Source of the DNA: Paenibacillus sp. 453mf
Lineage (GTDB): Bacteria; Bacillota; Bacilli; Paenibacillales; Paenibacillaceae
DNA length: 64,000 nt
Assembly (NCBI RefSeq): GCF_900116105.1
Contig: NZ_FPAC01000007.1
Coordinates: 93,669-157,668 of the forward strand
Reading direction: 5' to 3'
Shown here: piece after piece, positions 1 through 55,558 of the stretch
Layout of the letters: each line of letters begins with the position of its first letter
How positions within the stretch are numbered: position 1 is the stretch's first letter
Translations under genes and position numbers: made by a program
Notes under the pieces: model-generated
What the model saw: only the letters and a program-made list of their open reading frames with translations
The model's database searches: none
What the model was told of the DNA's origin: nothing

Positions 1-452
1 ACAATGCTGTAATTGTCGGACAGGTCAATGTAATCGAGCAGATTCGGTGTGACAAGCTGATGAGCAACCCGTTTGCCCATGTCTCTCTCCGGATAAATAA
101 TCCGGTCCACACCCAGCTTCTCCAGCGCCCTGCCATGCAGCAGCGAGATCGCTTTGGCAATGACCTTTTTCACACCAAGCTCCTTCAGCAGGATGGCGGA
201 AAGAATACTCATCTGAATATCATCTCCAATTGCCACGATACCGCAGTCAAAATTGCGGATTCCCAGTGAACGGAGCGTATCCTCATCCGAAGCATCCGCG
301 ACGACCGCATGTGTCAGAAACTCGCTCATGTCATTGACGATCTCCTCATTGCGGTCAATACCCAGGACTTCATAACCATTCTCTACGAGTTCCATTGCCA
401 GACTGGAACCGAAGCGGCCGAGTCCAACAACAACAAATTGCTGATTTTTCAT
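1..452 (-). CDS. ktrA: KtrA, RCK regulatory subunit of the K+ uptake system (3' part outside window)
   Basis: Cytosolic gating subunit of the KtrAB potassium transporter. Only the first 150 residues are in the window; the rest lies beyond the left edge. What is seen: the Rossmann nucleotide loop GLGRFG at residues 10-15, an acidic strand end IDRNEE at 32-37, and the RCK_N pattern continuing to the edge. In the family the N domain binds ATP/ADP and the missing C domain binds c-di-AMP. The ATG has an AGAGGAG ribosome site lying inside the end of ktrB, with 23 nt between the genes, so ktrB-ktrA is one transcript. Assignment is secure; completeness cannot be judged. Confidence 0.93.
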   Translation of the reverse strand, partial: MKNQQFVVVGLGRFGSSLAMELVENGYEVLGIDRNEEIVNDMSEFLTHAVVADASDEDTLRSLGIRNFDCGIVAIGDDIQMSILSAILLKELGVKKVIAKAISLLHGRALEKLGVDRIIYPERDMGKRVAHQLVTPNLLDYIDLSDNYSI

Positions 453-475: not shown

Positions 476-1822
476 TTAGCCAATAATAATCTTGCCTTCT
501 GGGTGTCTATACAATTCCTTGCTCTTTCTATTGAGCGCATAAGCGAGCGTCACCGGACCCAGACGGCCCGCAAACATCGTCAGGCAGATCAGCAGCTTCC
601 CAATGGTTGTCAGCTCGGGTGTAAGCCCCATAGACAGCCCTACCGTAGCAAATGCCGATGTCGTCTCAAATAAGATCATAAGGAACCTTGCATCTTCCGT
701 AGTGGATAGAATCATCGTTACCCCCACTACCGTAAGCAGCGATATCATCGTGATTGTCAGCGCCTTTGTAATTCGCTCCTGAGCCAAACGGTAGCGGAAC
801 ATCACCACATCGTCTTGGCCTCGTACCATGGATAACACTGCACCGACGAGGATGGCAAATGTCGTTGTCTTGATCCCGCCTCCAGTGGATCCCGGAGAAG
901 CCCCGATAAACATCAGCACGATGATGAAAAACTGGGTTGCCTGACGCAGGCCCGCGATATCAAGCGCATTTGCTCCGGCTGTCCTCGCCGTAACCGATTG
1001 GAAGAAGGAAGCGAGAATCTTCCCGCCTGCATCCAGTCCGCCCAAGGTCTTCGTGTTGCTAAATTCCAAGATAAATACAACTATTGCACCGAAGACGACC
1101 AGGAAGCCTGTTATCGACAGCACTACTTTTGAATGCAGTGACAGGGTTCGCTTCTTTCTTTTTCGCAGCTCAAGCACATCTGAGAGAACGACGAATCCAA
1201 GTCCACCCATAATGATCAGCGCCATCGCAGTTAAGTTGATAAACGGGTCATCTACATACATCGTCAGACTACGATAGTCGCCAAAGATATCAAAGCCCGC
1301 ATTATTAAACAATGATATCGAGTGGAATATGCCAAAATATACTGCCTTGCATATGCTCATATCGAAAGACCATCTGAGTGCAAACACAACAGCGCCTGCT
1401 GCTTCAATCGTCAGGGAATAGAGCAATACTTTACGAACCAGCTTAACAATGCCTTCAATAGAATTCTGGTTGAACGCTTCCTGCAGTATCAGCCTTTCCC
1501 TCAATGAAATCCTCCGCCTGAATACGATGGCAATCAAAGTGGTCATTGTCATGAATCCCAGACCGCCGATTTGGATCAGAAACATGATGACGACCTGACC
1601 AAATATTGAATAATCATATCCGGTGTCCAGTATGACGAGTCCGGTTACACATGTAGCAGATGTCGCTGTGAACAGCGCATCAACGAATCCTACGCTTTCT
1701 CCGTTCGCGCTCGAGACGGGCAGCATCAATAGAATGGTGCCAATCAGGATAATGCCGGCAAAGCCAAGCACCAAAATCTGCGGTGGATTCAATTTGAAAA
1801 TACGGTGCTGCTCGTTAAGCAC
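476..1822 (-). CDS. ktrB: KtrB, TrkH-family potassium channel/transporter subunit
   Basis: Membrane subunit that moves K+ (Na+-dependent in the family), gated by KtrA. The 448 residues show the four pseudo-repeated pore loops: TSATCVTG near 54-61, NNAGFD near 173-178, TARTAGAN near 278-285 and TSAFATVG near 388-395. The flexible gate loop GASPGSTGGG lies near 308-317. Length is normal for KtrB. The start is GTG with GAGGTG seven bases upstream. The gene is first in a ktrB-ktrA operon and is preceded by a short leader with a terminator-like hairpin (see 1853-1934) and a recognisable promoter, so expression is probably controlled at transcription elongation. Confidence 0.94.
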   Translation of the reverse strand: MLNEQHRIFKLNPPQILVLGFAGIILIGTILLMLPVSSANGESVGFVDALFTATSATCVTGLVILDTGYDYSIFGQVVIMFLIQIGGLGFMTMTTLIAIVFRRRISLRERLILQEAFNQNSIEGIVKLVRKVLLYSLTIEAAGAVVFALRWSFDMSICKAVYFGIFHSISLFNNAGFDIFGDYRSLTMYVDDPFINLTAMALIIMGGLGFVVLSDVLELRKRKKRTLSLHSKVVLSITGFLVVFGAIVVFILEFSNTKTLGGLDAGGKILASFFQSVTARTAGANALDIAGLRQATQFFIIVLMFIGASPGSTGGGIKTTTFAILVGAVLSMVRGQDDVVMFRYRLAQERITKALTITMISLLTVVGVTMILSTTEDARFLMILFETTSAFATVGLSMGLTPELTTIGKLLICLTMFAGRLGPVTLAYALNRKSKELYRHPEGKIIIG

Positions 1823-1852
1823 AGATTCACCTCGTTCTATGTTCCTTTCAAT

Positions 1853-1934
1853 AAAAAAGAACCAACAAGCACTTAAAGTCGAGGTCTATTGTATTGGTTC
1901 CCCTGTTTTCACTTTAGGATTCAGCTTATTGCTT
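1853..1934 (-). promoter_or_regulatory. ktrB leader with switch-like hairpins (possible compact ydaO/yuaA-type element)
   Basis: On the minus strand GAACCAA (1894-1900) can pair with TTGGTTC (1859-1865), followed by T6 (1853-1858): an intrinsic-terminator arrangement 31 bases before the ktrB start codon. The sequence around the left arm (GGGGAACCAAT, preceded by GCTGAATC) resembles the 5' half of the c-di-AMP ydaO/yuaA riboswitch, which precedes ktrAB in B. subtilis. The typical 3' half is not visible and the element is only about 80 nt. AAGCA (1930-1934) could pair with TGCTT (1867-1871), which lies inside the terminator loop. The riboswitch reading is inference. Confidence 0.4.
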
Positions 1935-1955
1935 CTCGTATGAAGTTCAACCACG

Positions 1956-1984
1956 ATTATAAGACTTTCAAGAAAGTGAGACAA
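1956..1984 (-). promoter_or_regulatory. Promoter of ktrBA (sigma-A type)
   Basis: On the minus strand TTGTCT (1979-1984) and TATAAT (1956-1961) are separated by 17 bases, close to the housekeeping consensus. Transcription would start near 1949, giving about 95 nt of leader up to the hairpin. Confidence 0.6.
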
Positions 1985-29482: not shown

Positions 29483-29628
29483 TTCTCATCTGCCAAGACC
29501 AGTAAGTAACCTTACGGTCTTGAAGGATTTAGCACCATGTCATTCTTGTACAGCAGTCTTATTGACTGCAATAAAGAATCGGTTGCCGGGCTTCATAGGG
29601 CCTGTCCCTCCGCCACTCTCGATAAGAA
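29483..29628 (-). promoter_or_regulatory. SAM-I riboswitch (S-box)
   Basis: Minus-strand sequence shows the invariant S-box pieces in order: CTTATCGAGAG, GGCGGAGGGAC, the CCTATGAAGCCCGGCAACC core, a GGTGCTAAATCC segment, and the closing GATGAGAAGG, whose P1 arms TTCTTATC (29621-29628) and GATGAGAA (29483-29490) pair. High SAM should favour the downstream terminator and shut off metNPQ. Confidence 0.96.
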
Positions 29629-55075: not shown

Positions 55076-55312
55076 ACAAAAAAGCCCCACATCCCGTAGA
55101 AGGGACGTGAGACCGTGGTGCCACCCTAATTCACTGAAATTCATCAGCCTTTCATTTTCCTTAACGCGGAAATCTTCGTCCGGCATACTGAAGAAGAATA
55201 TACCTTCTCGTTGTGCCTGGGAGCTCTGAGGTCCATTCAGACAAAGCATGCAACACCGATTCGCATCCACCACCGGCTTTCTGTACTTGCTAATGCTAAG
55301 CTTACTTATCCC
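55076..55312 (-). promoter_or_regulatory. T-box leader of trpS (tryptophan specifier)
   Basis: Minus-strand T-box sequence AGGGTGGCACCACGG (55113-55127) and specifier TGG (55233-55235, in the context CTGAATGGACCTC) lie in the right order and spacing. A terminator CACGTCCC/GGGATGTG with CCCC-side pairing, followed by T6 (55078-55083), ends it. Uncharged tRNA-Trp should pair with TGG and stabilise the antiterminator. An apparent short ORF running through it is not a gene. Confidence 0.96.
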
Positions 55313-55558
55313 CATCAACGCTTTAAATTGTATTATTCGCCGCTCGTCATATTACATTTGAGCTTTGCTATATCATAAGCATCTATTGCTCTAATTGTCA
55401 AACGTAAATATTACATTTACCAAAGATTACATTATTTTCATTGGGAAATGACAGATCCTTCTTTACAGCCAGACTCGATTATCTGATATGATAGTCTTAA
55501 GTTTGTTCTTTGTGGTTATCATAGCATTATGATTTTTGTGGGAAAAGGAGTAAATAAG
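55313..55558. other. Divergent promoter region of trpS and the aldose-epimerase gene
   Basis: About 245 bp, AT-rich. Must contain both promoters. No other element recognised. Confidence 0.5.

Follow-up and report, generated by a model that had tools for sequence, protein, structure and literature searches.

A ktrB leader in Paenibacillus is probably a truncated c-di-AMP riboswitch kept as an attenuator

A short leader upstream of the K+ uptake genes ktrB and ktrA of Paenibacillus raises the question of what a riboswitch-like sequence is when only its front half can be seen. A first-pass annotation of the window – the whole 64,000-nucleotide stretch of DNA analysed here – noted a string in this leader, GCTGAATCC...GGGGAACCAAT (1925-1893, minus strand), that resembles the first half of the c-di-AMP (ydaO/yuaA) riboswitch, and offered three options: a minimal c-di-AMP riboswitch, a remnant, or a different sensor. 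The full aptamer is described in excerpts of two articles as having pseudo-twofold symmetry with two ligands bound, and the title of a paper cited in both terms it internally pseudo-dimeric (PMC5575661, PMC5393176). We found no report of a halved c-di-AMP riboswitch among PubMed Central titles and the beginnings of abstracts, and a search of PubMed Central for a c-di-AMP riboswitch in Paenibacillus in connection with potassium returned nothing; a P. riograndensis transcriptome study, in the part consulted, places one ydaO-yuaA leader among those it saw before a cell wall hydrolase (PMC5670726). Here, we compare ktrB leaders across the genus and family, and favour with some confidence the reading that this one is a truncated descendant of a full c-di-AMP riboswitch, working as an attenuator whose signal is likely non-canonical.

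The gene is readily recognised. ktrB (476..1822, minus strand, with a GTG start at 1822) encodes a K+ uptake subunit of 448 aa matching Pfam TrkH (7.1e-65) and solved KtrB chains (2.1e-113), and the start of ktrA lies downstream of it (1..452, minus), cut by the window edge and assigned by comparison with the 221-aa ktrA of the congener leader locus L017. The sigma-70-like promoter that had been annotated is present, read from the sequence and by promoter scan, with a -35 box TTGTCT (1979..1984, minus) and a -10 box TATAAT (1956..1961, minus) separated by 17 nt, and the spacing to the -10 box would place the transcription start at about 1949. The -10 box and the ktrB ribosome-binding site GAGGTGA (1827..1833, minus) are invariant across the aligned relatives. 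Between them runs a leader of about 100 nt, also on the minus strand, that begins with conserved first bases, CGTGGTTGAACTTCAT (1940..1955, by class B pair comparison, see below), continues into the retained first half of the riboswitch, GCTGAATCCTAAAGTGAAAACAGGGGAACCAATAC (1891..1925), and finishes in a terminator whose end is 30 nt upstream of the ktrB GTG. The terminator 5′ arm, GGGGAACCAA (1894..1903), is common with the riboswitch-derived core; the 3′ arm is TTGGTTC (1865-1859, or 1857..1865 with the first T's), and a T6 tract follows (1853..1858), read from the sequence and T-rich in the class B alignment. The annotated leader of some 95 nt with a GAACCAA/TTGGTTC terminator and T6 is thus as described.

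An orthologous ktrB is present in all 75 congeneric genomes examined, every one of which also has one or more remoter matches, and reading the ortholog's leader in all 75 gave four sets. A full c-di-AMP riboswitch precedes ktrB in 17 (L024, L038, L044, L049, L051, L054, L060, L062, L063, L067, L070, L073, L077, L078, L084, L087 and L076, the last cut by the end of its stretch). Eight (L016-L023) have a leader of the window's kind with the first half only, which we call class B; 48 have a further reduced leader, class C; and two, L089 and L090, have neither form. A ninth class B leader, L004, which is near L021-L023, is outside all counts of eight. The sequence GGGAAC(G/C)A(A/T)T lies upstream of ktrB in 56 of the 58 congeners that are without a full riboswitch; since class C was defined by this motif, its presence in 48/48 class C leaders is by construction. 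In a record titled Neobacillus mesonae (L002, JAMBOW010000007.1), which looks like a Paenibacillus, a class B leader likewise precedes a ktrB that shares 88% identity with that of the window.

The full form extends beyond the genus. As an outgroup we took 40 leaders from six further genera of the family, drawn from the top of the listed ktrB matches and not at random. The second-half motif GTCAGCTAACC was found by script in 27, and L160 and L164 have a variant of it and are Rfam-positive, so that 29/40 have a full riboswitch; Rfam itself recognised one in 14 of the 20 leaders scanned. The full form is lacking in the remaining 11 (6 by Rfam, 5 by motif only), among which are the three leaders that genera g4 and g12 contributed. 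Because the full form occurs in 17/75 congeners and in 29/40 of these outgroup leaders drawn from the best matches, the ancestral state at the ktrB locus was, most simply, a full c-di-AMP riboswitch. A tree built by maximum likelihood from KtrB+KtrA, with 35 of 50 rows and L199 as root, gives ultrafast bootstrap values of 100 for class B, 100 for class C and 88 for the two together, and nests B+C among full-riboswitch lineages. Most simply, the common ancestor of B and C underwent a single reduction and the two then diverged, though there may have been two separate reductions. For the link between B and C we rely on the tree (88), on position and on a short string common to both, because the covariance models R2 (class C) and R3 (first half of the riboswitch only) do not join them: R2 matches a single class B leader of the eight, no better than chance (22.8 bits, E 0.95), and R3 has no leader match in the 14 class C sequences tried.

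The resemblance of the window's leader to the first half of the riboswitch is best explained by homology, the same locus carrying the full form in 17/75 congeners. The full ktrB leaders share GCCGAATTTC-nnnn-GAAAACGGGGGAACCATT, with 38 distinct first halves found by a pattern fixing part of the core, 26 of which were aligned; the class B leader L017 reads GCCGAATTCTAAAGTGAAAACAGGGGAACCAAT and is identical at 29/33 positions to the full riboswitch of L177. R3 scores are 29.2 bits for L017 (E 2.2e-4), 24.7 for L019 and 19.6 for L018. The window leader gives the best R3 match in the 64 kb (1931-1889, 16.7 bits, E 0.093, the next match scoring 13.6), and genome-wide the same 16.7 bits correspond to E 7.65, at chance level and below some non-riboswitch matches, so it is by way of L017-L019 that the window's eroded copy can be connected to the core. 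L021 scores 11.0 bits (E 1.4) and L020, L022 and L023 have no R3 match in the leader, hence the homology of L020-L023 rests on alignment with L016-L019. The core GCCGAAU-hairpin-GAAAACGGGGGAACC is accordingly clear in L017 and L019, weak in the window, and weak or absent in L020-L023. R3 is specific at high scores: in seven whole genomes its 11 matches of at least 24 bits are nine full RF00379 loci and two class B ktrB leaders, and the whole-genome matches listed do not include the class B leaders of G044 and G009.

The first-pass annotation had seen no second half, and the second-half core (GGGGUGAAU ... CCCGAACCCGUCAGCUAACCUCG) is indeed absent, by reading and by Rfam, from the window and the other class B leaders, eight in all; nothing recognisable of the aptamer lies downstream of GGGGAACCAATA in the window's clade. 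L021-L023 have lost the P1 strand GCCG, which is altered in the window, and P2 is broken, by reading, in 6/8 class B leaders, the window's included. A search with the Rfam ydaO covariance model, suggested as a check, gave no score in the window leader even at E<=10, and thus none at gathering (RF00379, cut-off 38 bits); no Rfam family matched the leader at E<=10 when positions 1600-2200 were scanned, the two weak matches both being outside it. RF00379 likewise has no match at E<=10 in 8/8 class B leaders or in the 12 of 48 class C leaders scanned, and the full ktrB riboswitches of the genus score 50.8-97.4 bits with the same library (17 leaders). A match of L047 to the Na+ riboswitch (23.2 bits against a cut-off of 40.5, E 0.37) was taken as chance. 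The minimal c-di-AMP riboswitch thus finds no support, there being neither an RF00379 score nor a second half.

The retained half has acquired a place in the terminator. Its GGGGAACC doubles as the terminator 5′ arm in 8/8 class B leaders, the eight pairs of GGGGAACC/GGTTCYYT (G-U allowed) are unbroken in all eight, and the terminator is the predicted minimum-energy fold in seven, the window being the exception; it is on these grounds that we consider the leader a probable attenuator. A stable hairpin with a U tract, as in intrinsic-terminator attenuators, lies between promoter and gene in 8/8. A simple terminator scan misses this one because it permits loops of 3-8 and the loop here is 28.

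Which pairing would oppose the terminator is less clear. The annotated competitor AAGCA/TGCTT does exist, and in enlarged form makes up the window's best fold (-19.2 kcal/mol), in which GAGAA.CAAUAAGC pairs with GCUUGUUG.UUCUU: the 5′ strand, 1924..1937 (minus), with 1870-1857, by folding only. Forcing the terminator costs 1.3 kcal/mol (-17.9). However, the competitor is unconserved and unsupported beyond chance, and we rejected it as a conserved switch, because the TGCTT strand is not retained in the nearest relatives L017-L019, the other seven class B leaders favour the terminator, and the whole window leader folded alone is no more stable than its shuffles (z -0.14). Folding the eight class B leaders yielded no conserved antiterminator. 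A UYCU/AGGG hairpin that would exclude the terminator can be drawn by reading in 8/8; it is weak and lacks covariation. Several single folds pair a GGnU at the start with AACC or AAUCC, in differing registers, and this pairing is unsupported across the eight. Covariation among related ktrB leaders had been set beforehand as a check, and no two-sided (compensatory) change was found in any helix of class B or class C, those in the class B terminator arms being one-sided.

A leader peptide was also considered and rejected by hand reading: the short frames in class B have 4 to 13 codons and differ, and those in class C shift between species. Probably by chance, short frames start from an [A/T]TG AAC TT(C/T) where the RNA is predicted to begin, in the window (1950-1921, minus) and at the same place in L017-L023; those of L020-L023 hold Trp-Ser-Trp. 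Elsewhere, the window has an ordinary T-box leader (55098-55327, minus, 96.1 bits) and an ordinary SAM riboswitch (29483-29628, minus, 77.6 bits).

Whether these remains are maintained can be judged against ktrB itself, whose fourfold-degenerate sites are saturated between the window and L020 (54/177 identical). Over the same distance the leader's GAAT..ACA block is identical at 20/20 positions, GGGGAACCAATAC at 12/13, the first bases at 15/16 and the terminator 3′ arm at 10/11, with 7/16 for the linker and 9/28 for the terminator loop. The first bases are identical at 12-16/16 positions across 28 class B pairs, and GGGGAACCAATAC stays at 12/13 between the window and L021-L023; the GAAT..ACA block is less kept there (15-16/23-24, and 13-16/23-24 between L021-L023 and L016-L019). 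The identities of the block and of GGGGAACCAATAC where fourfold sites are saturated show that the retained half is under strong purifying selection.

Class C leaders (e.g. L046, L080 and L082, within L025-L088) have the form CGCATGTC, a variable spacer and AAGGGAACGAATA, with the GAA and CC of the riboswitch core altered. By reading, their GGGAAC(G/C)A(A/T)T is not a terminator arm, and a separate terminator-like hairpin lies near the gene. In the 33 of 36 pairs with fourfold identity below 0.55 (0.32-0.54), CGCATGTC is identical at 7-8/8 positions, CAAGGGAACGAATAgA at 12-16/16 and the spacer at 1-6/9. These comparisons show that pieces are held by selection in both clades. A AATCATAC string recurs further downstream in many class C leaders. 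A class C hairpin AUGUGC/GCAUGU was rejected: 92.6% of cells pair, with no two-sided change, and 500/500 shuffles reach every measure.

Our preferred explanation is as follows. A full riboswitch would have stood ancestrally before ktrB in the family, its back half being lost in the window's clade. By default, transcription would stop at the terminator before ktrBA, and the conserved upstream block GAATCCTAAAGTGAAAACA and the first RNA bases would control whether GGGGAACC enters that terminator, possibly through UYCU pairing with AGGG or through binding of a factor. Because the second half, the P1 partner and the long-range helix are lost, the two c-di-AMP pockets should not form; the signal is therefore probably no longer canonical c-di-AMP, and another K+- or osmolarity-linked input may have taken its place. 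Among the three options first offered, the remnant fits best, as a truncated yet conserved descendant.

The strongest challenge comes from a simpler relic, in which deletion left a stub of the riboswitch that senses nothing and persists only as promoter-proximal sequence and one half of a terminator, either constitutive or weak. Loss of the riboswitch does recur (2/75 congeners with neither form, and 11/40 of the outgroup leaders taken from the best matches); one of the latter, L175, resembles by reading a deleted c-di-AMP riboswitch with just its 3′ end and old terminator; and the missing conserved antiterminator suits a stub. Against this, the window and L020 agree in all 20 bases of the block that precedes the terminator arm, at a distance where their synonymous sites are saturated; neither a terminator nor a promoter requires this block, and class C keeps CAAGGGAACGAATA at 12-16/16 block positions though its terminator sits elsewhere. 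We therefore think it unlikely that the leader is a mere relic.

Somewhat less probable still is that the conserved blocks are a protein-binding site, in DNA just past the promoter or in RNA, that replaced the riboswitch's sensor. Conservation of CGCATGTC, spacer and AAGGGAACGAATA as sequence without covariation is what protein sites show, but the regulator would have to have one target: no convincing second copy of the element was found, the strong matches of R2 in 75 genomes and of R1 in 394 being ktrB leaders only. Three further R1 matches (E 0.074-0.085) and nine of R2 (E 0.095-0.96, one being the class B ktrB leader of G047, all nine weak) were not accepted as other copies. We are similarly doubtful of a bolder idea, that the freed protomer became a small regulator of K+ uptake in its own right, which either responds to a new ligand or ion, with K+ the natural guess, or restores a pocket when two leader RNAs pair, and has since diverged into the conserved classes B and C. 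That the half is still a reduced c-di-AMP riboswitch, one protomer that finds its partner in another copy or in a degenerate second half, would suit the pseudo-twofold, two-ligand aptamer (in the same excerpts of PMC5575661 and PMC5393176), the retained first-half core and the place of ktrB among c-di-AMP riboswitch genes elsewhere, but is very improbable given the lack of any RF00379 match at E<=10 in 8/8 class B leaders, the mere 28 nt between core and terminator 3′ arm in the window, and the eroded P1 and decayed P2.

As a truncated descendant, the leader belongs by descent to the c-di-AMP riboswitch family and by membership test falls outside it, with no score and no second half. It shares with RF00379 the gene context, the locus in relatives, the first-half core GCCGAAUUUC-N-GAAAACGGGGGAACC and a terminator before the gene; it differs in being without the second half, the P1 partner and the long-range helix, in reusing GGGGAACC as a terminator arm, and in its lack of an RF00379 score. 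In the Bacillus thuringiensis kdpFABC riboswitch a K+ transporter gene is likewise under a leader terminator, but there, according to the portion of the report consulted, the aptamer is complete and c-di-AMP promotes termination (PMC6488665). Singlet glycine riboswitches with a ghost aptamer are, to our knowledge, the nearest known precedent for partial loss. In them, as excerpts of two reports describe, a two-part riboswitch lost one part and the rest is conserved; they differ in keeping one complete pocket, where the ktrB leader, judged from the fold, should have neither (PMC6944388, PMC7357161).

The window's genome has seven c-di-AMP riboswitches over the cut-off, one of them (L010) before kdpA (Pfam KdpA), and c-di-AMP control of K+ uptake thus probably persists elsewhere in the genome while ktrB has left it. 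Two others, L009 and L011, are in tandem about 140 nt apart (G000:C9:355451-355676 and 355816-355975). Upstream of the second KtrB paralogue (L091-L101), the 11 stretches scanned have no Rfam match at gathering.

At the ktrB locus one could thus follow how a riboswitch lost half its aptamer without changing place while the rest came under new and strong selection: one genus and its family offer, for comparison, full forms like the ancestor's, two derived forms and complete losses. Whether a fragment of an aptamer can live on as a different kind of regulator could be tested directly here. It also advises caution elsewhere, since Rfam-negative leaders before c-di-AMP-regulated genes may still derive from riboswitches.
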